A stretch of 64,000 bases of DNA from Coptis chinensis (Eukaryota; Streptophyta; Magnoliopsida; Ranunculales; Ranunculaceae), in assembly GCA_015680905.1 (NCBI GenBank), contig JADFTS010000035.1, positions 62,001 to 126,000 on the forward strand. The letters run 5' to 3'. The stretch's first letter is position 1. Each line of letters opens with the position of its first letter. Under the pieces are notes generated by a model. That model was not told the origin of the DNA. It saw only the letters and a program-made list of their open reading frames with translations, and made no database searches. Below are positions 1-41,546 of this stretch, piece after piece. A program made the translations under genes and the position numbers.

Positions 1-1569
1 TCTGCTCAAATACAGTCGCATGCACTACTTTATAAGCTCCAAACAACTTCCACTATTGAAGTTTGCGCCATCAATTCAGAATATACGTGTTGTTCCAACT
101 ACCTTGTGAAACATTCTTCCATATGTTCTACCTCATTATAAAGCCACGATCTTCGTCAAGGAAATCTGAAGTTAAAAAACTCATCTTGAAAAAATTAACT
201 TTTCACGTACATACCACGTAAGAGTGTCCAGACAAAATGCACATGTCTCATTTTGTGTTCTATCTCTTTCCTATTATGTGATATTTGTTTGTTTTCATTG
301 ATTGGTGTGATATTTTTAACTTTCTTTTGAAATGTTGCATATTGTGCTCGACACACTTTTTGCCGCATTGTTAGGTGAATTTTTCTCAAGCTTCGCAGGT
401 ATTTTCTTTCTTCATCTCTTGACATTTTTGGGAGAAAACATTCTTCTGTTTGGGGGTGGTAAGAACCTGAAGCAAAATTTACGCAGTTTTTTGGTTGTAT
501 AGAGCTTCTTTATGAATAGTTGTACTTAGTGACAAAGTCTTGTTTCCTTTTCAATGATGAAAAAATTGTCTAGAAATCTCACACTAGTATTCGAATTAGG
601 ATTTCTTCTTAGAAATTTAATATAATATGTATGCAATAGTTTTTACATCTTTTCTTGAACATTCATGCACGGAGTATCATTGACAGTACATTGTATACAT
701 TTTCCAGGTTTCAAATACCGACATGATCATTTCAAGGATATTTTATGTTATGCATTTTGGAGGGTTGGAATACAAGTGAAGAAAGAAGCTCCCGTGAATT
801 TTTTCACTGATCTGAATGAGGGAAGATTAACACTTCGGCCTGTGGATGTATTGGTCTACAATTGGTTTGAGGGGAGGCATGCGTGTTTTGATGTAACTGG
901 AGCCTCTCTATTGGTAGGGCTTGGGAATGGAGTATTTGAGTTGTGAGAAACAGCTACTAGAGCAGCAGCAGGCAAGATTTGGAAACACGAGGAGGCTTGT
1001 AAAGCTAACCTGCATTGTTTCATTCCGTTCAGTTTCGACACTTTTGGTTTCTTGGCACAACAATCTGTTAAGCTCCTTAAGTGATTGCAGAAAGTTATGA
1101 ACTACAACCTAATGACAGCTGGTTCTAACGAGTTTGTATTCAGGAGGATAGGATTTGCCGTTCATAATGGACTTGCGTCACAGCTTGTTGCACGCTTGTC
1201 CTAATTATTTGTAAAACTCGTTATCATTTTCAATAAAATTTCCACTTAAAAAACAACAACAACAACATTTTCTTTTATTCGAAGAGTATATAATACAAAA
1301 AAATAACAAAAAAAAAACCATTTTCTTTTATTCGAAGAGTATATACAATAAATAAAAAAATAAAAAAAATAACAACAACAAAAAGAACAACATTTTCTTT
1401 TATTCGAATAGTATATACTACAAAAAAACTATTGAAAAAAATACAACGTCATCATTTTCTTTTTTTCGTATTTTATCCAATAAAAAAAAAAAAAAAAAAA
1501 ATAAATGAAAAAAACCCTTAAAAATCAAAAAAATCAAAATATCACAAAAGCAAAGCTAACTGAATTTAT
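1..1569 (+). repeat. Array unit 1
   Basis: First unit, measured from one TCTGCTCAAATACAGTCG motif to the next. It has a leader, an endonuclease-like frame from 665 and a long AT-rich tail (about 1210-1560) with an (AAC)n tract, four subrepeats and poly-A stretches. Confidence 0.85.
665..1204 (+). pseudogene. Restriction-like endonuclease domain remnant, unit 1
   Basis: The frame starts MHGVSLTVHCIHFPG, followed by RHD and by R-P-V-D and D-V-T motifs. It is open for 93 codons and then meets a TGA just after GVFEL. The remaining reading (KIWKHEEA-like to LVARLS) is still recognisable up to a TAA at 1202-1204. See the unit at 36993 for the domain description. Confidence 0.55.
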
Positions 1570-2840
1570 TCTGCTCAAATACAGTCGCGTGCACTACTCT
1601 ATAAGCTCCAAACAGCTTCCACTATTGAAGTTTGCGCCATCAATTCAGAATATACATGTTGGTCTAACTACCTTGTGAAACATTCTTCCATATGTTCTAC
1701 CTCATTACAAAGCCACGATCTTCGTCTAGGAAATCTGAAGTTAAAAAACCCATCTTGAAAAAATTAACTTTTCACGTACATACCACGTAAGACTGTCCAG
1801 ACAAAAGCACATGTCTCATTTGGTGTGTTATCTCTTTCCTATTGTGTGATATTTGTTTGTTTTCATTGATTGGTGTGATATTTTTAACTTTCTTTTGACA
1901 TGTTGCATATTGTGCTCGACACACTTTTTGCCGCAGTGTTAGCTGAATTTTTTTTGAAGCTTCATAGTTATTTTCTTTCTTCATCTCTTGACATTTTAAG
2001 GAGAAAGCATTCTTCTATTTGGGGGTGGTAAGAACCTGAAGCAAAATTTACGTTGTTTTTAAGTTGTATAGAGCTTCTTTATGAATAAGTGTACTTAGTG
2101 AGTCTTGTTTCCTTTTCTATGATGAAAATTGTCTAGAAATCTCACACTAGTATTCGAATTAGGATTTCTTCTTAGAAAAGTAATATAATATGTACGCAAT
2201 AGTTTTTACATCTTTTCTTGAACATTCATGCACGGAGTATCATTGACAGCACATTGTATACATTTTCCAGGTTACAAATACCGACATGATCATTTCAAGG
2301 ATATTTTATGTGATGCATTTTGGAGGATTGGTGTACAAGTGAAGAAAGAGGCTCCCGTAAATTTTTTTCACTAATCCGAATGAGGGAAGATTAACACTTC
2401 AGCATGTTGATGTATTGGTCTACAGTTCGTTTGAGGGGAGGTATTCGTGTTTTGATGTAACTGGAGCCTCTCCATTGGTAGGGCTTGGGAATGGAATATT
2501 TTAGTTGGGAGAAATTGCTAATAGAGCAGCAGCAGGGATGATTTGGAAACACGAGGAGGCTTGTAAAGCTAAGCAGCATTGTTTCATTCCGTTCAGTTTC
2601 GACACTTTTGGTTTCTTGGCACAGCAATCTGTTAAGCTCCTTAAGTGATTGCAGAAAGTTATGGACTGCAACCTAATGACAGCTGGTTCTAACGAGTTTG
2701 TATTTAGGAGGATAGAATTTGCCGTTCAGAAAGGACTTGCGTCACAGCTTGTTACACGCTTGTCCTCATTATTTGTAAAACTCGTTATCATTATCAATAA
2801 AATTTCCACTTAAAAAACAACAACAACAACATTTTCTTTT
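1570..2840 (+). repeat. Array unit 2 (tail truncated)
   Basis: Second unit, in line with the first. Its coding-derived part starts at 2228 and is shifted out of frame by an extra T in the run after 'gtaaatttttttcac'. The tail ends after one (AAC)n tract, where unrelated sequence begins. It is thus the right edge of array 1. Confidence 0.85.
2228..2763 (+). pseudogene. Restriction-like endonuclease domain remnant, unit 2
   Basis: Same domain as in the other units. Its start (MHGVSLTAHCIHFPG) and end (RRIEFAVQKGLAS-like) can both be read, but not in one frame. No long open frame remains. Confidence 0.5.
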
Positions 2841-2877
2841 AATATACTAACAGATTTTAAAACAACAACAACAACAT

Positions 2878-3040
2878 TTAATATCCGTTGGATTCGGATT
2901 CAGATATCGATATAAATTTCCGGATACAGATAAAAATTTTAATATCCGTTGGATTCGGATTCGGATATCGGTATAAATTTTTGAATTCAGATTCAAATAC
3001 AGGCATATCCGAATCTGAATCTATCCATTTGCACCCCTAG
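2878..3040. mobile_element. Fragment of a small hAT-like MITE
   Basis: The stretch alternates 'ggattcggattcagatatcgat' type motifs and ends in TTTGCACCCCTAG. That ending is the inverse of a CTAGGGGTGCAAA end, typical of small non-autonomous hAT elements of plants. The matching left end is not visible, so this is a half copy. The family call rests on the end motif alone. Confidence 0.4.
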
Positions 3041-4276
3041 TGGGAAGTGATGAAAAAAAAGTTTAGTGAAAAAATATGTCGCTCAAGTGAAAAGAAGGGC
3101 GCAGGAAGTAGTGAAGAATGGCACGAAGAACAAAAGGGTTACAAATAGATAGGGTGTCACTTTTTCCACCAATTCTGATTTTTCTTAAATTTGATCCGAG
3201 ATATTTCCGAATTTGTTAATCATATATGCATTCCGATATCTGAAATTCTGATGTCTGAAAAAAATCGGATCAGAATCGAATGTGTTATCAAGAACGATCC
3301 GATTCGATCTGATTTTATCAAAAGCGATCCGATCCGAAATTTAATTATGAATTTATTTCCAATTGTTTAACACAGCTTGACCATCCATCTATATACTAAT
3401 GGTTAATTAGTGTGAGATCGACTTCTAATTCATACCGTAATATGTTTAACTCACAACTAACTTCACTTATATATTCCCAGAAAAACATAATATACAGGTA
3501 TGTGGTAGACTGGTAGCCAACAAAAACAACAAATGATGCAAGTATGACCAATTTCATTCCAGCATCTAAACTCATTTTACTGTCTGTATATATCTACCAA
3601 CATCACATGTGGCCAGTGTGCATTTTTCTTCTTTCAGTGTGTATGCTTGTGTGTCTCCATGTTTCCATGTTGTCTCTTAATCACCAATGGCTCAATATCA
3701 TATTTCTTTTCTTCTTTTCCACAAAACCTTGGAAACATCAATCAGGAGTATGACCCGTGCACCCAACAGTACTCAGGAATATACTTTAATTTACCGGAGG
3801 AGTAAACCCTTAATCACCCGTGCACCCTAAACCCTTAATCACCGTGTTGTCTCTCGTGTAGTGTTTGCTTTCACTGCCTATGTGCCACCACATTACAGCA
3901 CTCAGCACCAGTAGGTGACAGAGTCACAACATAACAAGGCAAATGCCAATTCCAAACTTTTTCCACTTGGCATCGTCCCACTATAACATTACCAAGTGCT
4001 TTCAGAAACTCATTGTCGCCTCTTCCCTAATGTAATGTCATAAAGACTATTATCTTGTTTTCCCTCTACGTTTCTTAAATTTTGGGTATTACCAGTTTAC
4101 CACTACTTCATCAGTGATAAAAGGTCAGAGCAGAAAGTGTACCTAGATAGTGTTGCTAAAAACATTAACGAAACTGCAAACATATAATGTACCCAGAATA
4201 TAGGATATCAACCGTTGTTGTTCAACCAAAAACCTCACTAGCTCTAATGCATAATACCCATAATCAAATTGTTTAC
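3041..4276. other. AT-rich stretch without a recognisable gene
   Basis: No frame here resembles a known protein. Between about 3170 and 3350 there is another run of 'gatccgattcgat' type motifs, probably a second decayed MITE related to 2878-3040. The rest shows no repeats or motifs I can name. Confidence 0.6.
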
Positions 4277-4607
<331 letters not shown>

Positions 4608-5215
4608 CTGCACAAAACGTAGAGATCACACAAATTCGTTAATTTCATTACAATATACAATTTTTTCTTGTCAAATCAGGAAAATCAACAACCACAAGAA
4701 GACAGTAAATTAAGTAACTCAGACAAACAAAACAGAATATTCAATTATGTGTCTGAGTGTCCAAACTCCAAATCAGGTGCATCCAGGCAGTCATACATAT
4801 CAAACGCTGGCTAATGTGAAAGGGAGTTTAAGTGTAGTTGTTGGAGGCCTCAGGTCGCTGGGACCTCATCATAAGGTAAACAGCATTACATTACATATTC
4901 AAATAAAGGAGAAGGAAAGCTGCTACTAAACCACACTACCGTGGACTGCCGATACCGTCAAATAGTAACCAACAAATAGCCCCTACCTAGTCCAGGACCT
5001 AGGAAAATAAACAGTAACCAAGAACTACTCCTAGTTAACTCGGTGTTAAGATAGCTTGGAACCCGTAAAATTCAACCTCTTTGTCAACTACTTCTTTTGT
5101 AATCTAATGTGCTCCTTTGCTTAAAACAAAGAATCATTAAACCTCATACTCTAGCTCGTAGCGATCCCATAGAAGAGAACTCACTCTACTTACACCTTTA
5201 GGCAGGTGTAAAATA
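4608..5215. other. Spacer upstream of the MAP kinase exon, no gene recognised
   Basis: AT-rich sequence where an intron of the MAP kinase gene would be expected. One plus-strand frame at 4747-4895 ends in a donor-like AAG/GTAAAC, but its residues match nothing I recognise. No further kinase exon was found. Confidence 0.5.
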
Positions 5216-6828: not shown

Positions 6829-7050
6829 TTCATTCACCATCAACTCACTGGTCCGAAAACAAACAAAAGAAGCAAGTGGCTTACTTGTATTGTGCTAGCG
6901 GCCATTAAATCACCAAAGAACTCCACCGCCAATAACGCACCGTCGACCAGGTTAATCACACATTTTCTCTCTCTCTATTTCTATTTTGTGCAACAAGAAT
7001 AGGGTTTCCCTTTCTCAAAACTCAAATCTATTCAAATTTTGAGTTAAGCG
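6829..7050. other. Part of copy A that is missing from copy B
   Basis: The second copy of the block lacks these ~220 bp; an LTR element sits at that point instead. On the minus strand, 6889-6953 reads LVDGALLAVEFFGDLMAAS followed by a good donor (GTAAGC), so it may be an old exon. I do not recognise the protein. Confidence 0.4.
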
Positions 7051-7608: not shown

Positions 7609-7724
7609 TATATGCAAATAAGAACCCGTAAATGAATATGGTATTATTTTTATTGTCTACCATGTTTTAAATGAGATCACTAACTCTTTCATGTCGGCGG
7701 GGTTCAATCCCCATCGCTCTAGTT

Positions 7725-7729
7725 GGTAT
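7725..7729 (+). repeat. Target site duplication GGTAT, left
   Basis: Five bases directly before the TG of the left LTR. The same five bases follow the CA of the right LTR at 16665-16669. Confidence 0.9.
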
Positions 7730-23580: not shown

Positions 23581-23868
23581 TTGTCCTAATTATTTGTAAA
23601 ACTCGTTATCATTATCAATAAAATTTCCACTTAAGAAAACAACAACAACAACAACATTTTCTTTTATTCGGAGAGTATATACTACAAAAAAAATAAAAAA
23701 AAAAAAAAAAAATCTATTCAAAGAGTATATACTATAAATAAAAAATAAAAAAATAACAGCAACATTTTCTTTTATTCGAAGAGTATATAGTATATACTAC
23801 AAAAAAAACTATAAAAAAAAATTAAAAAAAAATCATCATTTTCATTTTTTTAGATTTATCCACTAAAA

Positions 23869-23905
<37 letters not shown>

Positions 23906-23956
23906 TTAAAATAAAACAAAACAAAATCAACCAAAAGCAAAGCTAACTGAACTTAT
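23581..23956 (+). repeat. Partial unit at the left edge of array 2 (tail only)
   Basis: Starts at TTGTCCTAATTATTTG, the end of the coding-derived part, and holds only the AT-rich tail, with a (CA)n tract at 23872-23904. The junction with the Tat-type fragment is abrupt. Confidence 0.8.
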
Positions 23957-25485
23957 TCTGCTCAAATACAGTCGTGTGCAATACTCTATAAGCTCCACAC
24001 AGCTTCCACTAATGAAGTTTGCACCATCAATTCAGAATATAAGTGTTGGTCTAACTACCTTGTGAAACATTTTTCCATATGTTCTACCTCATTACAAAGC
24101 CACGATCTACATCTAGGAAATCTTAAGTTAAAAAACCCATCTTGAAAGACTTAACTTTTCAAGTACATACCACGTAGGAGTGTCCAGACAAAAGCACATG
24201 TCCAATTTATTGTGCTATCTCTTTCCTATTGTGTGATATTTGTTTGTTATCATTGATTGGTGTAATATTTTTAACTTTCTTTTGACATGTTGCATATTGT
24301 GCTCGACACACTTTTCGCCGCAGTGTTGGCTGAATTTTTTCTCAAGCTTCACAGGTATTTTCTTTCTTCATCACTTGACATTTTGTGAGAAAGCATCCTT
24401 CTGTTTGGGGGTGGTAAGAATTGGAAGCAAAATTTACGCAGTTTTTAGGTTGTATATAGCTTCTTTATGAATAAGTGTACTTAGTGACAAAGTCTTGTTT
24501 CCTTTTCAATGATGAAAATTGTCTAGAAATCTCACACTAGTATTCAAATTAGGATTTCTTCTTAGAAACTTAATATAATATGTACGCAATATTTTTACAT
24601 CTTTTCTTGAACATTCATGCACGGAGTATCATTGACAACACATTGTATACATTTTCCAGGTTTCAAATACCGACATGATCATGTCAAGGATATTTTATGT
24701 GATGCATTTTGGAAGGCTGGAGTACAAGTGAAGAAAGAGGCTCCCGTGAATTTTTTCACTAATCCGAATGGGGGAAGATTAACACTTCGGCCTGTGGATG
24801 TATTGATCTAAAGTTGGTTTGAGGGGAGACATGCGTGTTTTGATGTAACTGGAGCCTCTCCATTGGTAGGGCTTGGGAATGGAGTATTTGAGTTGGGAGA
24901 AGCAACTAATAGAGAAGCAGAGGGAAGATTTGGAAACACGAGGAGGCTTGTAAAGCTAACCAGCATTGTTTCATTCCGTTCAATTTTGACACTTTTGGTT
25001 TCTTGGCACAACAATCTGTTAAGCTCCTTAAGTGTCTGCAGAAAGTTATGGACTGCAACCTAATGACAGCTGGTTCTAACGAGTTTGTATTCAGGAGAAA
25101 ATGATTTGTCGTTCAGAAAGGACTTGCGTCACAGCTTGTTGCACGCTTGTCCTAATTATTTGTAAAACTCGTTATCATTATCAATAAAAATTTCCACTTA
25201 AAAAACAACAACAACAACAACAATATTTTCTTTTATTCGAAGAGTATATACTACAAAGAAAAAAAAATACTTTTATTCGAAGAGTATATACTATAAATAA
25301 AAAAATAAAAAATAACAACAACAAAAACAACAACATTTTCTTTTATTCGAAGAGTATATACTTTAAAAAAAAAACCAACATCATTTTTTTTTCGTAGATT
25401 ATCCACTACAAAAAAATAAAAATAAAAACCCCTTTAAAAATAAAACAAATCAAAATCTCACAAAAGCAAAGCTAACTGAAGTTAT
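23957..25485 (+). repeat. Array unit 3
   Basis: Complete unit of about 1529 bp with coding-derived part from 24617. Confidence 0.85.
24617..25155 (+). pseudogene. Restriction-like endonuclease domain remnant, unit 3
   Basis: Reads MHGVSLTTHCIHFPG to LTLRPVDVLI, then a stop. A later part continues in other frames. At the site where most units have TGA after SVKLLK this unit has TGT, so the stop there is not universal. Confidence 0.5.
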
Positions 25486-27007
25486 TCTGCTCAAATACAG
25501 TCGCATGCAATACTCTATAAGCTCTAAACAGCTTCCACTATTAAAGTTTACGCCATCAATTCAGAATATACGTGTTGGTCTAACTACTTTGTGAAACATT
25601 CTTCCATATGTTCTACCTCATTACAAAGCCACGATCTTCGTCTAGAAAATCTGAAGTTAAAAAACCAATCTTGAAAAAATTAACTTTTCACGTACATACC
25701 ATGTAGGAGTGTCCAGACAAAAGCACATGTCTCATTTGGTGTGCTATCTCTTTCATATTGTGTGATATTTGTTTGTTTTCATTGATTGGTGTGATATTTT
25801 TAACTTTCTTTTGACATGTTGCATATTGTGCTCGACACACTTTTCATCGCAGTGTTGGCTGAATTTTTTCTCAAGCTTCACAGGTATTTTCTTTCTTCAT
25901 CTCTTGACATTTTGAGGAGAAAGCATCCTTTTATTTGGGGGTGGTAAGAACTTGAAGAAAAATTTACACAGTTTTTAGGTTGTATATAGCTTCTTTATGA
26001 ATAAGTGTACTTAGTGACAAAGTCTTCTTTCCTTTTCTATGATGAAAATTGTCTAGAAATCTCACACTAGTATTCGAATTAGGATTTCTTCTTAGAAACT
26101 TAATATAATATATACGCAATAGTTTTTACATCTTTTCTTGAACATTCATGCACGGAGTATCATTGACAACACATTGTATACATTTTCCATGTTTCAAATA
26201 CCGACATGATCATGTCAAGGATATTTTATGTGATGTATTTCGGAGGGCTGGAGTACAAGTGAAGAAAGAGGCTCCCATGAATTTTTTCACTGATCCGAAT
26301 GGGGGAAGATTAACACTTCGGCCTGTGGATGTATTGGTCTACAGTTGGTTTGAGGGGAGGCATGCGTGTTTTGATGTAACTGGAGCCACTCCGTTGGTAG
26401 GGCTTGGGAATGGAGTATTTGAGTTGGGAGAAGCAACTAATAAAGCAGCAACAGGGAAGATTTGGAAACATGAGGAGGCTTGTAAAGCTAACCAGCATTG
26501 TTTCATTCCGTTCAATTTCGACACTTTTGGTTTCTTGGCACAATAATATGTTAAGCTCCTTAAGTGATTGCAGAAAGTTATGGACTACAACCTAATGACA
26601 GCTAGTTCTAACGAGTTTGTATTCAGGATGATAGGATTTGTCATTCAGAAAGGACTTGTGTCACAGCTTGTTGCACGCTTGTCCTAATTATTTGTAAAAC
26701 ACATTATCATTATCAATAAAATTTCCACTTAAAAAACAACAACAACAACAACAACATTTTCTTTTATTCGGAGAGTATATACTACAAAAAAAATTAAAAA
26801 AAAAATCTTTCATTTGAAGAGTATATAATATAAATAAAAAAATAAAAAAAATAACAACAACATTTTCTTTTATTCGTAAAGTATATAGTATATACTACAA
26901 AAAACAATTATTAAAAAAATAAAAATAAACACACACACACACACACACACACACTTTTAAAATAAAACAAAACAAAATCAACCAAAAGCAAAGCTAACTG
27001 AACTTAT
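25486..27007 (+). repeat. Array unit 4
   Basis: Complete unit of about 1522 bp. Its tail holds a (CA)n tract at 26928-26954, similar to the one at 23872, so the two tails may be recent copies of each other. Confidence 0.85.
26148..26687 (+). pseudogene. Restriction-like endonuclease domain remnant, unit 4 (132 codons open)
   Basis: One of the best preserved copies: open from MHGVSLTTHCIHFPC through RPVDVLVYSWFEGRHACFDV to FDTFGFLAQ, then TAA. RHD, R-P-V-D and D-V-T are all present. The C-terminal quarter lies beyond the stop. Confidence 0.55.
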
Positions 27008-28558
27008 TCTCGCTTCAAAAACAAGTGCAATACTCTATAAGCTCCAAACAACTTCCGCTATTGAAGTTTGCGCCATCAATTCAGAATATAAGTGTTGGTC
27101 TAACTACCTTGTGAAACATTCTTCCATATGTTCTACCTCATTACAAAGCCACGATCTTCGTCTAGAAAATCTGAAGTTAAAAAACCCATCTTGAAAAAAT
27201 TAACTCTTCACGTACATACCACGTAGGAGTGTCCAGACAAAAGCACATGTCCCATTTTTTGTGATATCTCTTTCCTATTGTGTTATATTTGTTTGTTATC
27301 ATTGATTAGTGTGATATTTTTAACTTTCTTTTGACATGTCGCATATTGTGCTCGACACACTTTTTGCCGCAGTGTTGGCTGAATTTTTTCTCAAGCTTCA
27401 CAAGTATTTTCTTTCTTCATCTCTTGACATTTTGAGGAGAAAGCATCCTTCTGTTTGGGGGTGGTAAGAACTTGAAGCAAAATTTACGTAGTTTTTAGGT
27501 TGTATATAGCTTCTTTATGAATAAGTGTACTTAGTGGCAAAGTCTTGTTTCCTTTTCTATGATGAAAATTGTCTACAAATCTCACACTAGTATTCAAATT
27601 AGGATTTCTTCTTCGAAACTTAATATAATATGTACGCAACAATGTTTACATCTTTTCTTGAACATTCATGCACGGAATATCATTGACAACACATTGTATA
27701 CATTTTTCAGGTTTAAAATACCGACATGATTATGTCAAGGATATTTTATGTGATGCATTTTAAAAGGCTGGAGTACAAGTGGAGAAAGAGGCTCCCGTGA
27801 ATTTTTTCACTGATCCAATTAGGGAAAGATTAACACTTCGGCCTCTGGATGTGTTGATCTACAGTTGGTTTGAGGGGAGACATGCGTGTTTTGATGTAAC
27901 TAGAGCCTCTCCGTTGGTAGGGCTTGGGAATGGAGTATTTGAGTTGGGAGAAGCAGCTAATAGAGCAGCAGCAGGGAAGATTTGGAAACACGAGGAGGCT
28001 TGTAAAGCTAACCAGCATTGTTTCATTCCGTTCAGTTTCTACACTTTTGGTTTCTTGGCACAACAATCTGTTAAGCTTCTGAAGTGATTGCAAAAAGTTA
28101 TGGACTGCAACCTATTGACAGTTAGTTCTAACGAGTTTGTATTCCGGAGGATAGGATTTGTCGTTCAGAAAGGATTGCATCACAGCTTGTTGCACGCTTT
28201 TCCTAATTATTTGTATAACTCGTTATCATTATCAATAAAATTACTACTTAAAAACAACAACAACAACAACAACAACAACAATTTTTTTTTATACTAAAAA
28301 AAAAAAAAAAAAAAAAATCTTTTCTTCGAAGAGTATACTATAAATAAAAAAATAAAAAATAACAACAACAAAAACAACAACATTTTCTTTTATTCGAATA
28401 GTATATACTACAAAAAAACTATAAAAAAATAAAAAATAAAATAAAAAAACATCATCATTTTCTTTTTTCGTAGATTATCCACTACAAAAAAAATAATAAA
28501 AACCCTTTAAAAATAAAACAAATCAAAATCTCACAAAAGCAAAGTTAACTGAACTTAT
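27008..28558 (+). repeat. Array unit 5
   Basis: Complete unit of about 1551 bp. Its first bases differ from the others (TCTCGCTTCAAAAACAAG instead of TCTGCTCAAATACAGTCG). Confidence 0.85.
27668..28206 (+). pseudogene. Restriction-like endonuclease domain remnant, unit 5
   Basis: An early stop lies near FWRAGV, but a frame of 102 codons from 27779 covers EAPVNFFTDP, RPLDVLIYSW, the D-V-T region and SVKLLK. Confidence 0.5.
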
Positions 28559-28657
28559 TCTGCTCAAATACAGTCGCGTGCAATACTCTATAAGCTCTTA
28601 ACATATTCCACTATTGAAGTTTGCGCCATCAATTCAGAATATATGTGTTGGTCTAAC

Positions 28658-29095
28658 CAAGGCCATAAATATCGATCGCTTTATCGAAAAATTGCCGATA
28701 TATATCGTTTTTTCAACAATCCAACTTCGAAAAATCTAAAATATCGGCTCCGAAAATTTAATATTTTTTAAACAGATATATATCGGTAAAACAGATATAA
28801 AGATATATATCGACGATATATTCCGACATATTTCGACATATTTGATATATATCGTTTGACTTTGTTGGACAGTTTGACTTTTGACCGATTTTGTTGACTG
28901 TTGACCGATATATCCCGATATATATAATGATATATATCGGTGATATTTCCGATATATCCCGATTTTTTGATTTGTCTTAATATTATCACCAAAATAGGCA
29001 AAAACGATATATCGATCCGACATATCAATATATTCGATATATATCTTTTTTTGGCCCCTCCAATATATCCTAATATCCCAAAAAATTGGGACTTT
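28658..29095. mobile_element. ATATATCG-rich MITE in unit 6
   Basis: A 438-bp insert flanked by the 8-bp duplication GGTCTAAC (28650-28657 and 29096-29103). It is full of CGATATATATCG-like palindromes. The ends (CAAGGCCATAAAT and ATTGGGACTTT) are only weakly inverted. The 8-bp duplication suggests a hAT-type origin. It encodes nothing recognisable. Confidence 0.65.
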
Positions 29096-29665
29096 GGTCT
29101 AACTACCTTGTGAAACATTCTTCCATATGTTCAACCTCATTACAAAGCCACGATCTTCATCTAAGAAATCTGAAGTTAAAAACCAATCTTGAAAAAATTA
29201 ACTTTTCACGTACACACCACGTAGGAGTGTCAAGACAAAAGCACATGTCGCATTTGGAGTGCTATCTCTTTCTTATTGTGTGATATTTGTTTGTTTTCAT
29301 TGATTGGTGTGATATTTTTAACTTTCCTTTGACATGTTGCATATTGTGCTCGACACACTTTTCGCAACAATGTTGGCTGAATTTTTTCTCAAGCTTCACA
29401 GGTATTTTCTTTCTTCATCTCTTGACATTTTGAGGAGAAAGCATCCTTCTGTTTGGGGGTGGTAAGAACTTGAAGCAAAATTTCCGCAGTTTTTAGATTG
29501 TATATAGCTTCTTTATGAATAAGTGTACTTAGTGACAAAGTCTTGTTTCCTTCTCTATGATGAAAATTATCTAGAAATCTCACACTAGTATTCGAATTAG
29601 GATTTCTTCTTAGAAACTTAATATAATATGTACGCAATAGTTTTTACATCTTTTCTTGAACATTC

Positions 29666-30200
29666 ATGCACGGAGTATCATTGACAACACATTGTATACA
29701 TTTTCCAGGTTTCAAATACCGACATGATCATGTCAAGAATATTTTATGTGATGCATTTTGGAGGGCTAGAGTACAAGGGAAGAAAGAGACTCCCGTGAAT
29801 TTTTTCACTGATCCGAATGGGGAAGATTAACACTTCGGCCTGTGGATGTATTGATCAACAAATGGTTTGAGGGGAGGCATGCGTGTTTTGATGTAACTGG
29901 AGCCTTTCTGTTGGTAGGGCTTAGGAATGGAGTATTTGAGTTGGGAGAAGCAGCTAATAGAGCAGTAGCAGGGAAGATTTGGAAACACGAGGAGCCTTGT
30001 AATGTTAACCAGCATTGTTTCATTCCGTTCAGTTTTGACACTTTTGGTTTCTTTGCACAACAATCTGTGAAGCTCCTTAAGTGATTGCAGAAAGTTATGG
30101 ACTGCAACCTAATGATAGCTGGTTCTAACGAGTTTGTATTCAGGTGGATAGGATTTGCCATTCATAAAGGATTTGCGTCACAGCTGCACGCTTGTCCTAA
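29666..30200 (+). pseudogene. Restriction-like endonuclease domain remnant, unit 6
   Basis: Readable throughout with one frame change near the middle. A frame of 80 codons from 29842 covers MDVLINKWFEGRHACFDVTG to SVKLLK. Confidence 0.5.
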
Positions 30201-30501
30201 TTATTTGTAAAACTCGTTATCATTATCAATAAAATTTTCACTTAAAAACAACAACAACAACAACAACATTTTCTTTTATTCGAAGAGTATATAATACTAC
30301 AAAAAAAAAAGAAAAAAAATCTTTTATTCGAATAGTATATACTATAAATAAAAAAATAAAAAAATAACAACAACAAAAACAACAACATTTTCTTTTATTC
30401 GAAGAGTATAAAGCATACAAAACAAAAAAAAAAAAAAAAAAAAACTCGTTTAAAAATAAAACAAATCAAAATCTCATAAAAGCTAAGCTAACTAAACTTA
30501 T

Positions 30502-32026
30502 TCTGCTCAAATACAGTCGTGTGCAATACTCTATAAGCTCCAAACAGATTCCACTATTGAAGTTTGCGCCATCAATTCAGAATATATGTGCTGGTCTAAC
30601 TACCTTGTGAAACATTCTTCCATATGTTCTAACACATTACAAAGCCATGATTTTCGTCTAGGAAATCTGAAGTTAAAAAACCCATCTTGAAAAAATTAAC
30701 TTTTCACGTACATACCACATAGGAGTGTCTAGACAAAAGCACATGTCCCATTTGTTGTGCTATCTCTTTCCTATTATGTGATATTTGTTTGTTTTCATTG
30801 ATTGGGGTGATATTTTTAACTTTCTTTTGACATATTGCATATTGTGCTCGACACACATTTCGCCGCAGTGTTGGCTGAATTTTTTCTTATGCTTCACAGG
30901 TACTTTCTTTCTTCATCTCTTGACATTTTAAGGAGAAATCATCCTTCTATTTGGGGGTGGTAAGAACTTGAAGCAAAATTTACACAGTTTTTAGGTTGTA
31001 TATAGCTTCTTTATGAATAAGTGTACTTAGTGACAAAGTCTTGTTTCCTTTTCTATGATGAAAATTGTCTAGAAATCTCACACTAGTATTCGAATTAGGA
31101 TTTCTTCTTACAAACTTAATATAATATGTACGCAATAGTTTTTACATCTTTTCTTCAACATTCATGCACGGAGTATCATTGACATCACATTGTATACATT
31201 TTCCCGGTTTCAAATAACGACATGATCATGTCAAGGATATTTTATGTGATGCATTTTGGAGGGCTGGAGTACAAGTGAAGAAAGAGGCTCCCGTGAATTT
31301 TTTTACTAATCCGAGTGGGGAAAAATTAACACTTCGGCCTATGGATGTATTAGTCTACAGTTGGTTTGAGGGAGGCATGCATGTTTTTTATGTAACTGGA
31401 GCCTCTCCGTTGGCTGGGCTTGGGAATGGAGTATTTGAGTTGGGAGAAGCAGCTAATAGAGCAGTAGCTGGGAAGTTTTGGAAAACAGGGAGGATTGTAA
31501 AGCTAACCAGCATTCTTTCATTCCGTTCGGTTTCGACACTTTTGGTTTCTTGGCACAACAATCTGTTAAGCTCCTTAAGTGATTGCAGAAAGTTATGGAT
31601 TGCAACCTAATGACAGCTGGTTCTAACGAGTTTGTATTTAGGAGGATATGATTTGTCGTTCAGAAAGGACTTGCGTTACATCTTGTTGCACGCTTGTCCT
31701 AATTATTTGTAAAACTCGTTATCATTATCAATAAAATTTCAACTTAAAAAACAACAACAACAATATTTTCTTTTATTCGAAGAGTATATTCTACAAAAAA
31801 AAATCTTTTATTCGAAGAGTATATACTATAAATAAAAAAAATTAAAAATAATAACAACAAAAACAACAACATTTTCTTTTATTCGGAGAGTATATACTAC
31901 AAAAAAAACTATAAAAAAAAATCATCATTTTCTTTTTTTCGTAGATTATCTACTACAAAAAAAAATAAAACTCTTTAAAAATAAAACAAATCAAAATCTC
32001 CCAAAAGCAAAGCTAACTGAACTTAT
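30502..32026 (+). repeat. Array unit 7
   Basis: Complete unit of about 1525 bp. Confidence 0.85.
31164..31702 (+). pseudogene. Restriction-like endonuclease domain remnant, unit 7
   Basis: The RHD site is altered (TAACGACATGATC). A frame of 111 codons from 31275 covers EAPVNFFTNP and RPMDVLVYSW; a one-base loss near EGGMHVF shifts the following part. Confidence 0.5.
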
Positions 32027-33587
32027 TCTGCTCAAATACAGTCGCGTGCAATACTCTATAAGCTCCAAACAGCTTTCACTATTGAAGTTTCCGCCTTCAA
32101 TTCAGAATATACGTGTTGGTCTAACTAGCTTGTGAAACATTCTTCCATATGTTCTACCTCATTACAAAGCCACGATCTTCGTCAAGGAAATCTGAAGTTA
32201 AAAAACCCATCTTGAAAAAATTAACTTTTCACGTACATACCACGTAAGAGTGTCCAGACAAAAGCACATGTCTCATTTGGTGTGCTATCTCTTTCCTATT
32301 GTGTGATACTTGTTTGTTTTCATTGATTGGTGTGATATTTTTAACTTTCTTTTGACATGTTACATATTGTGCTCGACACACTTTTTGCCGCAGTGTTCGC
32401 TGAATTTTTTCTCATGCTTCATAGGTATTTTCTTTCTTCATCTCTTGACATTTTGAAGAGAAAGCATCCTTTTGTTTGTGGGTGGTAAGAACCTGAAGCA
32501 AAATTTACGCAATTTTTACGTTGTATAAAGCTTCTTTATGAATTAGTGTACTTAGTGACAAAGTCTTGTTTTCTTTTATATGGTGAAAAAATTGTCTAGA
32601 AATCTCACACTAGTATTCGAATTAGGATTTCTTATTAGAAACTTAATATAATATGTACGCAATAGTTTTTACATCTTTTCTTGAACATTCATGCACGGAG
32701 TATCATTGACAGCACATTGTATACATTTTTCAGGTTTCAAATACCGATATGATCATGTCAAGGATATTTTATGTGATGCATTTTGGAGGGCAGAAGTACA
32801 AGTGAAGAAAGAGGCTCCCATGAATTTTTTCACTAATCCGAATGGGGGAAGATTAACACTTCAGCCTGTGGATGTATTGGTCTAAAGTTGGTTTGTGTGG
32901 TGGCATGCGTGTTTTGATGTAACTGGAGCCTCTCCGTTGGTACGGTTCCGGAATGGAGTATTTGAGTTGGGAAAAGCAGCTAATAAGGCAGCAGCAAGTA
33001 ATATTTAAAAACACGAGGAGGCTTGTAAAGTTAACCAGCATTGTTTGATTCTGTTCAGTTTCGACACTTTTGGTTTCTTGCCACAACAATATGTTAAGCT
33101 CCTTAAGTGATTGCAGAAAGTTATGGACTGCAACCTAATGACAGGTGGTTCGAACGAGTTTGTATTCAGGAGGATAGGATTTGCCGTTCAGAAAGGACTT
33201 GAGTCACAGCTTGTTGCACGCTTGTCCTAATTATTTGTAAAACTCATTATCATTATCAATAAAATTTCCACTTAAAAAACAACAACAACAAAATTTTCTT
33301 TTATTCGAAGAGTATATACTACAAAAAAAACAAAAAACAAAAATAAAAAAACATTTTCTTTTATTCGATGAGTATATACTATAAATAAAAAAAATAACAA
33401 CAATAAAAACTACAATATTTTCTTTTATTCGAAGAGTATATACTACAAAAAAACTATAAAAAAAAATAAAAATAAATAAAACATCATCATTTTCTTTTTT
33501 CCTTAGGTTATTATCCACTACAAAAAAAAACCACTTTAAAAATAAAACAAATCAAAATCTAACAAAAGCAAATCTAACTGAACTTAT
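32027..33587 (+). repeat. Array unit 8
   Basis: Complete unit of about 1561 bp. Confidence 0.85.
32691..33230 (+). pseudogene. Restriction-like endonuclease domain remnant, unit 8
   Basis: Open from MHGVSLTAHCIHFSG to LTLQPVDVLV (64 codons), then a stop. The R of R-P-V-D is Q here. The rest is more diverged than in other units. Confidence 0.5.
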
Positions 33588-34251
33588 TATGTTCAAATAC
33601 AGTCGCGAGCACTACTCTATAAGCTACAAACATCTTCCACTATTGAAGTTTGCGCTATCAATTCAGAATATACGTGTTGGTCTAACTACCTTGTGAAACA
33701 TTCTTCCATATGTTCTACCTCATTACAAAGCCATGATCTTCATCAAGGAAATCTGAAGTTAAAAAACCTATCTTGAAAAAATTAACTTTTCATGTACATA
33801 CCACGTAAGAGTGTCCAGACAAAAGCACATGTCTCATTTGGTGTGCTATCTCTTTCCTATTGTGTGATATTTGCTTGTTTTCATTGATTGGTGTCATATT
33901 TTTAACTTTCTTTTGACATTTTGCATATTGTGCTCAACACACTTTTTGCCGCAGTGTTAGCTGAATTTTTTCTCAAGCTCCACAAGTATTTTCGTTCTTC
34001 ATCTCTTGACATTTTGAGGAGAAAGCATCCTTCTGTTTGGGGGTGGTAAGAACCTGAAGCAAAATTTACGCAGTTTTTAGGTTGTATAGAGCTTCTTTAT
34101 GAATAGGTGTACTTAGTGACAAAGTCTTGTTTCCTTTTCTATGATGAAAAATTTGTCTATAAATCTCACACTAGTATTCGAATTAGGATTTCTTCTTAGA
34201 AACATAATATAATATGTATGCAATAGTTTTTACATCTTTTCTTGAACATTC

Positions 34252-36212
34252 ATGCACGGAGTATCATTGACAGTACATTGTATAAATTTTCCAGGTTTCA
34301 AATACCGACATGATCATTTCAAGGATATTTTATGTTATGCATTTTGGAGGGTTGGAGTACAAGTGAAGAAAGAGGCTTTCGTGAATTTTTTTCACTGATC
34401 CGAATGAGAGAAGATTAATGATCTTAACACTTTTCAATGTTTTTAGAAGTTGACTTACTACGTGCTAAAACTCAATAATTCCTTACTCACTGTTTTTTTT
34501 TTTCTTTTAGAATGTCAATCTAGTTCGAGTAGGGATTTCGTTCTAACTTCTAAGACAAGAATCTAAATGGTCACAACTGAAATCTATACCTTGAAGAAGT
34601 AAGTGAGAAGGATTTGATAGATAGTTTTTTTTTTTTACACAAGTTATCTAAAATTTGTAAGTTTGTTTATAGTTAAATGAAAGAGAGAGAAAGATAGGGA
34701 AGGATTAATCCTACTCATGCAAGGCCTAGCTACAAGTCTTTTAGAAACAGGTCACTACCATCTCAAATCCCTAACATAATATACCTATCTCTAAACATAT
34801 CATGCTAGCATGTAGAATTGAAATGATATTTCATCTCTAAAATATCATTCCAACTCCTAGTTCTACTTTACAACAATTTATCAGATATTTGTCAATCTCT
34901 GTCATTTTAGGACAGGATAAAAAATAGAACCTAAGTCTTTTAAGTAGTGATTTTGGAATCCTAAATTTGTAGCCTGATCCTCACATGAGCATCATTAACC
35001 TTCCCCTTGGGAGAGTTTTAGCTCATGATCTTAGGATTTGATTAAAACTACAAGTAAGATAAGTAAAAAGAGATAGAAAGAAGAAATGAATACAAAACCC
35101 ACTAATTACCTAAGGAAAACAGAAGTTTTTATTGAAGAACTAGAAGGTGTAGTCCTCCATTAAAAACTAAAAACTAAAAACTAAAAGTAAAGACATGGAA
35201 GTAAATGAAAAGTAAAAGTCAAGGAATTAAAAGCTAGCTAACTCCCAAAATCAGCCCCCCTTTACATAAGAGAGCCTTTATCTCTTCTCCCACGTGAAAC
35301 ACTCTCCTTTCATTTATTTTTCACGTATCCACAACTAACCCCCATTTTGACACCTTTTATTTTTTTAGATAATCATCACCTAAATCCAACCAACTCATTA
35401 ACTTCATGCAAGGTGTCAAATTTGCACCAATTATTTGCACCTTTGTCTGGACTTGCATGATGACTCATCAAATCTTATGGGCCCGCCTAGTGGGTCAACA
35501 TGCAGTGTCCAGTGGCAGTCCGGTCTTTTGGCATTTTTACAACTTCCTGCCTATGCGTAGAGTTCGTCGCACTGATCGTCGGAGCAGCTCACTCGTCGCA
35601 TTCGGAGTCCTGGTTCAAGAGATATTAGCTTCAGAAGTTTGACGCTTCTGTGCACGTAATCCCGTTTCTGACTAGATTCTGTATTATTTGAGTCTTTGGG
35701 CTTTAGTCCGGATTTGTTGGGCTTCACATGGGCTTGATCGGAAGGCATGTGTATACTCCCTATTCTGTGCTTAAATGTTGGCTTTATAATAATTTTACAT
35801 TAGTTGCTCTAACCCGCAAAAGCACTTAAGATGCGATTATTTCATGATTATTAAGCACAAAATTGACCTAAATGTTATGTCTCTACAGGTTTTTATAATA
35901 CAGTTTTGGGTGCTTATCAATTAACACTTCGGCCTGTGGTATATTGGTCTACAGTTGGTTTGAGGGGAGGCATGCGCGTTTTGATGTAATTGGAGCATCT
36001 CCGTTGGTAGGGATTGGGAATGGTGTATTTGAGTTGGGAGAAGCAGCTAATAGAGCAGCAGTAGGGATGATTTGGAAACACGAGGAGGCTTGTAAAGCTA
36101 ACCAGCTTTGTTTCATTCCATTCAGTTTCGACACTTTTGGTTTCTTGGCACAACAATCTGTTAAGCTCCTTGAGTGATTGCAGAAAGTTATGGACTGCAA
36201 CCTAATGACAAC
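34252..36212 (+). pseudogene. Restriction-like endonuclease domain remnant, unit 9, interrupted
   Basis: The left part is 34252-34418 and the right part 35925-36212. The right part has an open frame of 77 codons from 35944 with the ARFDVIG region (D-V-I instead of D-V-T). The last ~40 codons are deleted. Confidence 0.5.
34419..35919. mobile_element. Solo LTR inside array unit 9
   Basis: A 1501-bp insert that starts TG, ends CA and is flanked by the 5-bp duplication ATTAA (34414-34418 and 35920-35924). There is no internal region. Read on the minus strand it begins TGATAAGCACCCAAAAC, similar to the first bases of the Athila-like LTR at 7730, so it may be a Ty3/gypsy LTR inserted in minus orientation. 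Confidence 0.75.
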
Positions 36213-36327
36213 ATCATCATTTTCTTTTTATTCGTAGATTATCCACTAAAAAAAAAAAAATAAAAATAAAATCCTTTAAAAATAAAACAAATTAAAATCT
36301 CACAAAAGCAAAGCTAACTGAACTTAT

Positions 36328-37880
36328 TCTGCTCAAATACAGTCGCGTGCACTACTTTATAAGCTCCAAACAGCTTCCACTATTGAAGTTTGCGCCATCA
36401 ATTTAGAATATAAGTGTTGGTCTAACCACCTTGTAAAACATTCTTCCATATGTTCTACCTCATTACAAAGCCACGATCTTCGTCAAGGAAATCTGAAGTT
36501 AAAAAACTCATCTTGAAAAAATTAATTTTTCTCGTACATACCACGTAAGAGTATCCAGACAAAACGCACATGTCTCATTTTGTGTGCTATCTTTTTCCTA
36601 TTGTGTGATATTTGTTTGTTTTCATTGATTGGTGTAATATTTTTAACTTTCTTTTGACATGTTGCATATTGTGCTCGACACACTTTTTGTCGCATTGTTA
36701 GCTGAATTTTTTCTCAAGCTTCACAGGTATTTTCTTTCTTCATCTCTTGACATTTTTGGGAGAAAGCATCCTTGTGTTTCGGGGTGGTAAGAACCTGAAG
36801 CAAAATTTACGCAGTTTTTAGGTTGTATAGAGCTTCTTTATGAATAGGTGTACTTAGTGACAAAGTCTTGTTTCCTTTTCTATGATGAAAAAATTGTCTA
36901 GAAATCTCACACTAGTATTCGAATTAGGATTTCTTCTTAGAAACTTAATATAATATGTACGCAATAGTTTTTACATCTTTTCTTGAACATTCATGCACGG
37001 AGTATCATTGACAGTACATTGTATACATTTTCCAGGTTTCAAATACCGACATGATCATTTCAAGGATATTTTATGTTATGCATTTTGGAGGGTTGGAGTA
37101 CAACTGAAGAAAGACGCTCCCGTGAATTTTTTCACTGATCCGAATGAAGGAAGATTAACACTTCGGCCTGTGGATGTATTGGTCTACAATTGGTTTGAGG
37201 GGAGGCATACGTGTTTTGATGTAACTGGAGCCTCTCCGTTGGTAGGGCTTGGGAATGGAGTATTTGAGTTGGAAGAAGCAGCTACTAGAGCAGCAGCAGG
37301 GAAGATTTGGAAACACGAGGAGGCTTATAAAGCTAACCAGCATTGTTTCATTCCGTTCAGTTTCGACAATTTAAGTTTCTTGGCACAGCAATCTGTTAAG
37401 CTCCTTAAGTGATTGCAGAAAGTTATGGACCGCAACCTAATGACAGCTGGTTCTAACGAGTTTGTATTCAGGAGGATAGGATTTGCTGTTCATAATGGAC
37501 TTGCGTCACAGCTTGTTGCACGCTTATCCTAATTATTTGTAAAACTCGTTATCATTACCAATAAAATTTCCACTTAAAAACAACAACAACAACAACAACA
37601 ACAACATTTTCTTTTATTCGAAGAGTATATAATACAAAAAAAAAAACATTTTCTTTTATTCGAAGAGTATATACTATAAATAAAAAAATAACAACAACAA
37701 AAAGAACAACATTTTCTTTTATTCGAAGAGTATATACTACAAAAAAAACTATTAAAAAAAATACAACATCATCATTTTCTTTTTTTCTTATTTTATCCAA
37801 TACAAAAAAAAAATTAAAAAAAAAACTCTTAAAAATAAAAAAAATCAAAATATCACAAAAGCAAAGTTAACTGAATTTAT
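36328..37880 (+). repeat. Array unit 10
   Basis: Complete unit of about 1553 bp. Contains the longest open copy of the endonuclease-like frame. Confidence 0.85.
36993..37532 (+). CDS. Restriction-like endonuclease-type domain, unit 10 (139 codons open)
   Basis: The best copy. From Met at 36993 the frame is open for 139 codons to a TGA after SVKLLK; a further 40 codons are readable to a TAA at 37530-37532. Residues 9-21 read HCIHFPGFKYRHD, a C/H cluster followed by R-H-D. R58-P-V-D61 and F75-D76-V-T78 lie about 15 residues apart, with basic and aromatic residues between. This order (C/H cluster, RHD, then R/K-P-D and D-V-T) matches the restriction-like endonuclease at the C terminus of R2/CRE-type non-LTR retrotransposons, which nicks the target DNA for reverse transcription. 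Similar sequences follow reverse transcriptases in plant genomes. No reverse transcriptase is present in any unit. The frame may not be translated at all; the family call is an inference from motifs. Confidence 0.55.
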
Positions 37881-38559
37881 TCTGCTCAAATACAGTCGCG
37901 TGCACTACTCTATAAGCTCCAAACAGCTTCCACTATTGAAGTTTGCGCCATCAATTCAGAATATACATGTTGGTCTAACTACCTTGTGAAACATTCTTCC
38001 ATATGTTCTACCTCATTACAAAGCCACGATCTTCGTCTAGGAAATCTGAAGTTAAAAAACCAATCTTGAAAAAATTAACTTTTCACGTACATACCACGTA
38101 AGAGTGTCCAGACAAAAGCACATGTCTCATTTGGTGTGCTATCTCTTTCCTATTGTGTGATATTTGTTTGTTTTCATTAATTGGTGTGATATTTTTAACT
38201 TTCTTTTGACATGTTGCATATTGTGCTCGACACACTTTTTGCCGCAGTGTTAACTGAATTTTTTTTCAAGCTTCACAGTTATTTTCTTTCTTCATCTCTT
38301 GACATTTTGAGGAGAAAGCATTCTTCTATTTGGGGGTGGTAAGAACCTGAAGCAAAATTTACGCTGTTTTTAGGTTGTATAAAGCTTCTTTATGAATAAG
38401 TGTACTTAGTGACAAAGTCTTGTTTCATTTTCTATGATAAAAATTGTCTAGAAATCTCACACTAGTATTCGAATTAGGATTTCTTCTTAGAAAATTAATA
38501 TAATATGTACGCAATAGTTTTTACATCTTTTATTGAACATTCATGCACGGAGTATCATT

Positions 38560-39360
38560 CACTACACCAGAAAATGCATTTACTAACAGTTATATCCGTT
38601 ACTTATATTTTTACTAACGGTTATATCCATTAGCTCTGGGGCGTCACTCTCACTTAATTAAGCAAAAATTAGTAACGGATATAACCGTTACTAATAATAA
38701 TTTTTGTAACGGTTATATCTGTTACTAAAATTCTTTGTAACAGATAGCCAACTATTGGTGGCCCAATTAAATTTGTCATTTCTAATGGATATATCCGTTA
38801 GTAATGGATGTACTATTTACTTAACTATTGTTTGTAACGGATATATCTGTTACTAACTTTTAGTCTAAGAAAAAATAAAATTTCTCGGGTCAAATTTTTT
38901 TTTCCACCTCGCAAATCTAATTCTTCCACATCCGACTATTCCATCAAGCATAAATATCTATACAACAACTCAAGCAACAAATGAATAACAAGAAAAAGCA
39001 ATCCAAATCTCAATTTACATAGAAAGAAACAAGGCCTCCAATCCAAATCACAATTTACATTGAAACAAAAACAAAGTCTCACAATGAGTTTTCCTACTTT
39101 CTTCCTTAATTCATTTCTACCATATACAGATAGACATATATTGACAAACCTAACAAACACATTGTTCTCATTGTCAATTACTTGAACCGAAATGTTTCCT
39201 AGCCATAGCACAAAAGCAAGCATAGCAAATGTACTCTCTTGATCATCTTTACAAAGTCGAACAATATCTAACGCCTCCTGATCAAATGAAGGAAACAAAA
39301 ACCATAAGCTGTGTTGTCATTATTAATAACTAATAGCTAGCGAAAGGGCTATAAACCTAC
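38560..39360. mobile_element. CACTA transposon fragment carrying a myosin exon
   Basis: The left end CACTACACCAGAAAA is the classic terminus of plant CACTA (En/Spm) elements. At least six subterminal repeats of a TAACGGATATAACCGTTAC type follow in both orientations (38580-38870). The right terminus, which should be its inverse, is missing: the element stops near 39360 and runs into unit sequence. It inserted after ATT in the unit, and the unit resumes at ATTGACAGCACATTG. No transposase is present, so it is non-autonomous. Confidence 0.8.
39153..39277 (-). pseudogene. Myosin motor-domain exon fragment inside the CACTA element
   Basis: On the minus strand, after a good acceptor (TTTGATCAG), the frame reads EALDIVRLCKDDQES then TFAMLAFVLWLGNISVQVID and NENN. 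The run FAML-x3-LWLGN-[IV]-S-x-x-V-x-DNEN is typical of the motor domain of plant myosins (class VIII or XI), the actin-based motors. It covers only about 41 codons. It was most likely picked up from a host gene by the transposon and is not a functional gene. Confidence 0.75.
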
Positions 39361-39378
39361 ATGATCATTTCAAGGATA

Positions 39379-39903
39379 TTGACAGCACATTGTATACATT
39401 TTCCAGGTTTCAAATACCGACATGATCATTTCAAGGATATTTTATATGATGCATTTTGGAGGGTTGGAGTACAAGTGAAAAAAGTGGCTCCTATGAATTT
39501 TTTCACTGATCCGAATGAGGGAAGATTAACATTTCGGCCTATTAATGTATTGGTCTACAATTGGTTTTAGGGGAGGTATGCGTATTTTGATGTAACTGGA
39601 GCCTCTCCGTTGGTAGGGATTGGGAATGGAATATTTGAGTTGGGAGAAATAGCTAATAGAGCAGCAGCAGGGATGATTTGGAAACATGAGGAGGCTTGTA
39701 AAGCTAACCAGCATTGTTTCATTCCGTTCAGTTTCGACACTTTTGGTTTCTTGGCACAGCAATCTGTTAAGCTCCTTAAGTGCTTGCAGAAAGTTATGGA
39801 CTGCAACCTAATGACAGCTGGTCCTAACGAGTTTCTATTCAGGAGGATAGGATTTGCCGTTCAGAAATGACTTACGTCACAACTTGTTGCAGGCTTTTCC
39901 TCA
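39379..39903 (+). pseudogene. Restriction-like endonuclease domain remnant, unit 11
   Basis: Restarts at GACAGCACATTG after the CACTA insert. It reads HCIHFPGFKYRHDHFKDIL, FRPINVLVYNWF, a stop, then 86 codons to FAVQK. Here the site after SVKLLK is TGC (Cys) rather than TGA, so the C-terminal part LQKVMDCNLMTAG is in frame. Confidence 0.5.
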
Positions 39904-40262
39904 TTATTTGTAAAACTCGTTATCATTATCAATAAAATTTCCACTTCAAAAACAACAACAACAACAACAACATTTTCTTTTATTCGAAGAGTATATACTA
40001 TAAAAATAAAATAAAATAAAACATTTTCTTTTATTCGAAGAGTATATACTATAAATAAAATAAAAACAACAACAACAACAACAACATTTTCTTTTATTCG
40101 AAGAGTATATACTACAAAAAAACTATAAAAAAAATAAAAAAACAACAACATCATTATTTTCTTTTTATTCGTAGATTATCCACTACAAAAAAAATTAAAA
40201 ATAAAATCCTTTAAAAATAAAACAAATCAAAATCTCACAAAAGCAAAGCTAACTGAACTTAT

Positions 40263-41546
40263 TTTGCTCAAATACAGTCGCGTGCACTACTCTATAAGCT
40301 CCAAACAGCTTCCACTATTGAAGTTTGCGCCATCAATTCAGAATATATGTGTTGGTCTAACTACCTTGTGAAACATTCTTCCATATGTTCTACCTCATTG
40401 CAAAGCCACGATCATCGTCAAGGAAATCTGAAGTTAAAAAACCCATCTTGAAAAAATTAACTTTTCACGTACATACCACATAAGAGTGTCCAGACAAAAG
40501 CACATGTCTCATTTGGTGTGCTATCTCTTTCCTATTGTGTGATATTTGTTTGTTTTCATTGATTGGTGTGATATTTTTAACTTTCTTTTGACATGTTGCA
40601 TATTGTGCTCAACACACTTTTTGCCGCAGTGTTAGCTGAATTTTTTCTCAAGCTTCACAGGTATTTTCTTTCTTCATCTCTTGACATTTTGAGGAAAAAG
40701 CATCCTTCTGTTTTGGGGTGCTAAGAACCTGAAGCAAAATTTATATAGTTTTTAGGTTGTATATAGTTTCTTTATGAATAGGTGTACTTAGTAACAAAGT
40801 CTTGTTTTCTTTTCTATGATGAAAAATTTGTCTAGAAATCTCACACTAGTATTCGAATTAGGATTTCTTCTTAGAAACGTAATATAATATGTACGCAATA
40901 GTTTTTACATCTTTTCTTGAACATTCATGCACGGAGTATTATTGACAGTACATTGTATACATTTTCCAGGTTTCAAATACCGACATGATCATTTCAAGGA
41001 TATTTTATGTTATGCATTTTGGAGGGTTGGAGTACAAGTGAAGAAAGAGGCTCCCGTGAATTTTTTCACTGATCCGAATGAGGGAAGATTAACACTTCGA
41101 CCTGTGGATGTATTGGTCTACAGTTGGTTTGAGGGGAGGCATGCGTGTTTTGATATAACTGGAGCCTCTCCGTTGGTAGGGCTTGGGAATTGTGTATTTG
41201 AGTTGGGAGAAGCAGCTAATAAAGCAAAGAGCGGGGATGATTTGGAAACACGAGGAGGATTGTAAAGCTAACCAGCATTGTTTCATTCCGTTCAGTTTCG
41301 ACAATTTAAGTTTCTTGGCACAGCAATCTGTTAAGCTCCTTAAGTGATTGCAGAAAGTTATGGACCGCAACCTAATGACAGCTGGTTCTAACGAGTTTAT
41401 GTTCTGGAGGATAGGATTTGTCGTTCAGAAAGGACTTGCGTCACAGCTTGTTGCACGTTTGTCCTCATTATTTGTAAAACTCGTTATCATTATCAATAAA
41501 ATTTCCACTTAAAAAACAACAACAACAACAACATTTTCTTTTATTC
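40263..41546 (+). repeat. Array unit 12 (right edge, tail truncated)
   Basis: Last unit. It ends in its first tail subrepeat at TTTTATTC, then unique sequence starts. Confidence 0.85.
40927..41466 (+). pseudogene. Restriction-like endonuclease domain remnant, unit 12
   Basis: Open for 112 codons from MHGVLLTVHCIHFPG through RPVDVLVYSW and D-I-T to NKAKSGDD, where the frame shifts. The remainder resembles unit 10, including its 'gacaatttaagtttc' variant. Confidence 0.5.

Follow-up and report, generated by a model that had tools for sequence, protein, structure and literature searches.

Satellites derived from long interspersed nuclear elements (LINEs) have been reviewed (PMC9659126, in its accessible part) and include chicken HinfI (SCR1), whose unit contains the 3′ untranslated region (UTR) of the LINE CR1 together with part of its coding region. 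PROsat, Pvc 20 and the Common Cetacean Satellite are likewise tandem repeats built from LINE fragments, in these cases from mammalian LINE-1 sources, and the same portion of the review mentions no minisatellite that borders them in common (PMC9659126). At plant chromosome ends, the subtelomeric Retand repeats of Silene combine retroelements with tandem repeats, although Retand elements are long terminal repeat (LTR) elements and not LINE fragments (PMC12477314, accessible part). Here we describe a tandem array in a 64,000-nucleotide stretch of Coptis chinensis DNA, referred to as the window (assembly GCA_015680905.1, contig JADFTS010000035.1, positions 62,001 to 126,000, forward strand). The array is very probably a satellite, situated mostly near chromosome ends where its copies can be placed, in which a 5′-truncated piece of an R2-like LINE has been multiplied as a passenger together with a minisatellite. 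Since LINE-derived satellites are already known, it joins an existing class: the units are long, similar and arranged head to tail, they are homologous to a LINE dispersed in the same genome, and the captured part is free of coding constraint. Like the chicken HinfI unit, the Coptis unit has a LINE 3′ UTR and part of the coding region; it differs in having an apparently R2-like plant LINE as its source, an unrelated leader and a shared minisatellite block. The endonuclease of CR1, an animal LINE, is of a different type.

Self-comparison of the window with blastn revealed head-to-tail units of ~1.5 kb. Twelve of these carry the endonuclease-like part (11 with nearly whole bodies and one with a body split by a solo LTR), in agreement with an initial annotation that had reported a tandem array of at least 12 units; an additional 3′-end remnant of a unit begins at 23581. 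Array-to-array matches longer than 250 bp are 87–94% identical, save one 493-bp match at 78%. The annotation had given the array as positions 1–41546; it totals ~18 kb within those 41.5 kb and is broken into five pieces, the remainder being other insertions. Within its 220.8-kb contig, the array continues leftward beyond the window. The parts of a unit are illustrated by the one that holds the longest open frame:

36300..37012, + strand: leader of the unit with the frame at 36987–37412; it comprises a first part of ~400 bp and a last part of ~310 bp, pieces of which are like a dispersed repeat
36987..37412, + strand: longest open array frame in the window, 141 amino acids, terminating at a stop common to most units
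37017..37600, + strand: LINE-derived body, with RHD, R-P-x-D and D-V-T, and a 3′ UTR with AATAAA and (CAA)n
37590..37860, + strand: minisatellite block, with copies of ACATTTTCTTTTATTCGAAGAGTATATACTAC and A-rich spacers

DNA comparison identifies the body, in the 3′ part of the unit, as the 3′-terminal ~583 bp of a dispersed LINE. Its coding part amounts to 171 codons, followed by a short 3′ UTR, close to the ~179 coding-derived codons first proposed, and the 139-codon frame that had been placed at 36993 is recovered as the 141-residue frame above. The motifs RHD, R-P-x-D and D-V-T are all present in the array, as claimed, and are readable in the longest frames; the Cys/His cluster named alongside them holds for its last residues alone, because LINE homology starts within the CCHC cluster. 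With just these ~583 bp, the unit carries no reverse transcriptase (RT). Unit positions ~713–1299 match 18 of 20 fetched 10-kb loci nearly full length, at 79–86% nucleotide identity, and the other two loci (L031 and L032) contain RT-segment units only.

Comparison with the LINE loci revealed no LINE homology in the leader. Pieces of its last ~310 bp are 69–77% identical to a dispersed high-copy repeat, perhaps the 3′ region of an LTR retrotransposon. This repeat has 3040 candidate sites in the genome, and the 40 scored matches, the query's own site included, are all at least 91% identical to the query copy from locus L023. An origin of the leader as a LINE 5′ UTR is not supported, because the L023 sequence that it matches falls beyond the region L023 has in common with L022 and belongs to a dispersed repeat of high copy number.

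Plant LINEs are typically assigned to the apurinic-endonuclease type, and the titles and abstract openings retrieved from the open literature with our search terms describe no R2-type or restriction-like endonuclease (RLE) LINE in plants. The RLE-bearing clades comprise CRE, R2, R4, NeSL, HERO and Utopia (PMC4640811, accessible part), of which Utopia elements are known from oomycetes (PMC5348765, accessible part). We searched the Coptis genome (935.6 Mb, 116 contigs) for relatives of the array, using an RT sequence as the query. Among 2654 candidates, 116 scored matches are 49–64% identical to the query, 12 of them stop-free over the matched RT stretch. At locus L011, one frame of 840 amino acids spans the RT, a CCHC cluster and the C-terminal domain of the array, and at L010 a frame of 762 amino acids has an N-terminal Cys/His cluster and the RT. 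A relative with the RT upstream, for which a search had been suggested, is thus present in the same genome. Pfam places RVT_1 above the cut-off in both long frames and below it in a third frame that holds just part of the RT; no apurinic endonuclease was matched by Pfam in the two long frames, both of which are incomplete proteins. In the PDB, the L011 frame matches R2 proteins best, over the RT region and with E about 1e-5. The C termini of L011 and L022 follow the R2-type order C-x2-C, H, C, K/RHD, R-P-x-D, 14 residues, D-V-T, from which single copies deviate. This architecture, the RVT_1 matches and the R2 proteins matched in the PDB lead us to call the parent an R2-like, RT-bearing LINE, a designation based on sequence. 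The R2-type order of parts first read in the array units is that of the C-terminal end of such a LINE.

The parent shares with the RLE clades an N-terminal Cys/His cluster, a central RT and a C-terminal CCHC cluster with an endonuclease-like domain (PMC4640811, accessible part), as well as an RT that matches R2 proteins in the PDB. It differs from them in that its copies are dispersed, end in A-rich tails and lack a flank that all share. Among 16 dispersed copies, these 3′ tails vary from long to just four or five A, and no 3′ flank recurs in all 16. Insertion at one 28S ribosomal DNA site, as in R2 proper, does not fit these copies, ribosomal DNA itself not having been searched. Exact matching, with 5′ ends unmapped, gave no convincing target duplications for the 16 copies; flank matches of 8–13 bases in ten of them were judged to be A-rich or low-complexity chance matches. 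Two pairs of loci, L035/L039 and L026/L040, share sequence past the LINE 3′ end, for which shared targets, duplicated regions or read-through are possible explanations.

Searches with the endonuclease-like domain itself returned little. Pfam gave no match for four array frames, PDB sequence searches gave either chance-level matches (E 0.51 and E 0.42) or none, and no relatives were confirmed in viral contigs, plasmids, or bacterial and archaeal genomes. AlphaFold2 applied to a 14-row alignment produced a model with a mean predicted local distance difference test score of 35, too low for reading a fold, and the model was not used.

We then assessed whether the captured frame is under selection. 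The starting set had 57 rows, ten partial matches having been excluded beforehand; removal of 12 duplicates or cut rows gave 23 LINE copies and 22 array units, of which 11 are from the window and 11 from six loci that lie on four further contigs. Mean ratios of non-synonymous to synonymous substitution rates (dN/dS), calculated with our own script by Nei-Gojobori counting with codons containing stops or gaps skipped, are 0.79 for the 22 array units, 0.93 for the 11 window units and 0.20 for the 23 LINE copies. Differences are spread about equally over the three codon positions in the array units and fall mainly on the third position in the LINE copies. A stop at codon 132 is common to 18 of the 22 array units, some of which also have frame-breaking gaps or insertions. 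The array frame therefore evolves about neutrally, with no coding constraint on the captured part.

These data bear directly on the idea of a selected family of endonuclease genes lacking an RT, or of a selfish endonuclease satellite. The 141-residue window frame, two fully open units elsewhere and the legibility of RHD, R-P-x-D and D-V-T in the longest frames are what such a family would offer. Against this stand the nearly neutral codon pattern, the common stop and the frameshifts, the amplification of a short form without the core, and the start of the LINE part inside the CCHC cluster, and we regard the idea as extremely improbable. The initial annotation was right on two points: the part derives from the C terminus of a LINE with R2-like architecture, and it lies within a satellite-like tandem repeat. 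Its view that the endonuclease end alone had become a repeat in its own right is not supported, given the nearly neutral frame with a mostly inherited stop, the RT-bearing parent in the same genome, the amplified core-less short unit and a sister array with an RT segment. The endonuclease looks like a passenger that does nothing for the array today, and not like a working part.

Arrays elsewhere in the genome show what accompanies the captured segments. Downstream of the LINE end in the window units comes (CAA)n, followed by a ~32-bp motif that is present two to four times and accompanied by A-rich spacers. We found no support for this minisatellite as a continuation of the leader's dispersed repeat, as in four comparisons 18–54% of the shuffled sequences scored no worse. 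The same minisatellite block adjoins different LINE segments in different arrays. An array at C2:114.12 Mb (L042, C2:114121000-114125500) consists of ~850-bp units without the leader end and without the part of the body that bears RHD, R-P-x-D and D-V-T. The window form also occurs at C3:1-6000, right where a chromosome-sized contig begins, and there a single short unit is interspersed with long ones. C45:90001-120000 (L031-L033) holds 15 tandem units of the LINE RT segment, bordered by the window array's minisatellite; the first of these units is truncated at the boundary of this stretch. A mixed array around a longer LINE copy at L027, positions 1-10000 (C1:1777001-1787000), contains LINE 3′ ends, minisatellite blocks and a Helitron-like piece.

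The main competing explanation is serial site-specific insertion, in which a LINE lineage would target the minisatellite and each copy would land in the tail of the previous one, building a head-to-tail array. In L027 as well as in the window arrays, LINE 3′ ends run into (AAC)n and the same minisatellite, each of the three kinds of array has a different 5′ cut point in the LINE, and some HERO families target microsatellites (PMC4640811, accessible part). However, each array has one shared 5′ junction in place of varied truncations; 14 of the 15 C45 units are fused to the minisatellite at one internal LINE point and lack the LINE 3′ end, which only the last unit reaches; and none of the 16 dispersed LINE copies has the minisatellite at its 3′ end. 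We consider serial insertion unlikely.

A Helitron engine was proposed because L027 has a repeated piece that ends in a hairpin and CTAGT. Rolling-circle amplification driven by a Helitron would agree with the L027 repeat family D2 (five copies), some of which end in ACGTGCAACGCACGTACCCGTTTACTAGT, or nearly so, before the minisatellite, a Helitron-like end pattern. Yet the window contains no such hairpin with two mismatches allowed, the L027 piece used as a query found no match in C45:90001-120000, and there are minisatellite arrays without any Helitron end. Such an engine is very unlikely to be general.

The minisatellite and the arrays lie mostly near chromosome ends where they can be placed. 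A minisatellite 26-mer has 400 exact matches in the genome, with none for a reversed-pattern control, and 93 of the 100 matches listed lie less than 4 Mb from a large-contig end; the remaining seven are at C2:86.05 Mb, C3:117.17 Mb and C6:92.05 Mb (five matches). Because they are clustered, the matches are not independent. The leader–LINE junction has 113 genome matches with up to two mismatches, and its control none. Of the 100 junctions listed, 79 are on small contigs and 21 on large ones, with 17 of the latter less than 4 Mb from an end and four at C6:92.04-92.05 Mb.

In the window, the array and the DNA that interrupts it are arranged as follows:

1..2879, + strand: array piece 1, with LINE-derived bodies at 689-1259 and 2252-2823, leaders and a minisatellite block
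23581..28657, + strand: array piece 2, with the 3′-end remnant from 23581 and bodies at 24641-25211, 26172-26742 and 27692-28263
28658..29093, strand not given: insertion of ~0.44 kb, flanked by copies of TTGGTCTAAC
29094..34418, + strand: array piece 3, with bodies at 29690-30257, 31188-31757 and 32715-33285 and the start of the split body at 34276-34415
34419..35919, strand not given: solo LTR of 1501 bp inside a unit, with TG..CA ends and a 5-bp target duplication, ATTAA
35920..38559, + strand: array piece 4, with the remainder of the split body at 35924-36210, a body at 37017-37589 and leaders
38560..39377, strand not given: insertion of ~0.8 kb that starts CACTACACCAG, a CACTA-like start
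39378..41546, + strand: array piece 5, with bodies at 39388-39958 and 40951-41522 and the right edge of the array

Pieces 1 and 2 are separated by 20.7 kb of non-array DNA at 2880-23580, and no inverted end matching the CACTA-like start was found in the insertion at 38560..39377. Whole blocks of this layout recur elsewhere. Window 38766-43015, which includes ~1.5 kb past the array, is found on C6 (95.7% identity) and C28 (94.5%), window 39378-43013 on C37 (92.3%), and window 35048-39059, which takes in part of the solo LTR, on C6 (95.0%). Units have therefore been copied in blocks between loci, edges and insertions included.

Other features of the window were also recorded. Two direct repeats of ~1.65 kb, 93% identical, end an apparent LTR element at 7719-16664, and self-blastn pairs 5208-6612 with 42572-43946 (~1.4 kb, 88% identical) on either side of array pieces. 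Frames at 45204-51488 resemble remains of a Ty3/gypsy polyprotein, with a Retrotrans_gag match in 45204-45686, the sole part searched, and adjacent frames at 62478-63870 are reminiscent of a plant transposase, as an impression only.

The origin that we favour is capture followed by joint amplification. Near chromosome ends, LINE copies would have landed in or beside a minisatellite that is rich in A and contains (AAC)n, where minisatellite copies on both sides would permit unequal crossing-over or some other kind of tandem duplication. The minisatellite and the captured segment would then have been multiplied together, and the arrays may have spread through block exchange between loci. Several observations weigh against this account or limit it. 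An empty ancestral site was not found, and for that reason we infer the order of capture and amplification. The cluster at C6:92.05 Mb, with its five listed minisatellite matches and four listed junctions, is ~8 Mb from an end, and the initial 6 kb of C3 contain neither TTTAGGG nor CCCTAAA. Chromosome-end location applies to the placed part only, because the minisatellite positions are 100 of 400 and most listed junctions are on small contigs. Two of the 22 units (L002 and L003, on other contigs) have a fully open frame. A single clade separates the 22 array units from the 23 LINE copies; its support, 0.69, is moderate, and the units are less than independent because they were copied in blocks.

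A broader proposal, which we offer tentatively and think more probably wrong than right, is that the (AAC)n-minisatellite block acts at plant chromosome ends as a module for capture and amplification, one that would turn its neighbours, such as LINE segments, LTR-like pieces and Helitron ends, into new satellites, and near which R2-like LINEs may favour landing.

These results remove the tempting reading of an endonuclease living alone as a satellite. What appears to be a multi-copy R2-like LINE in a plant genome is worth specialist attention, and a minisatellite that borders satellites of different captured segments would make the birth of satellites traceable within one genome.

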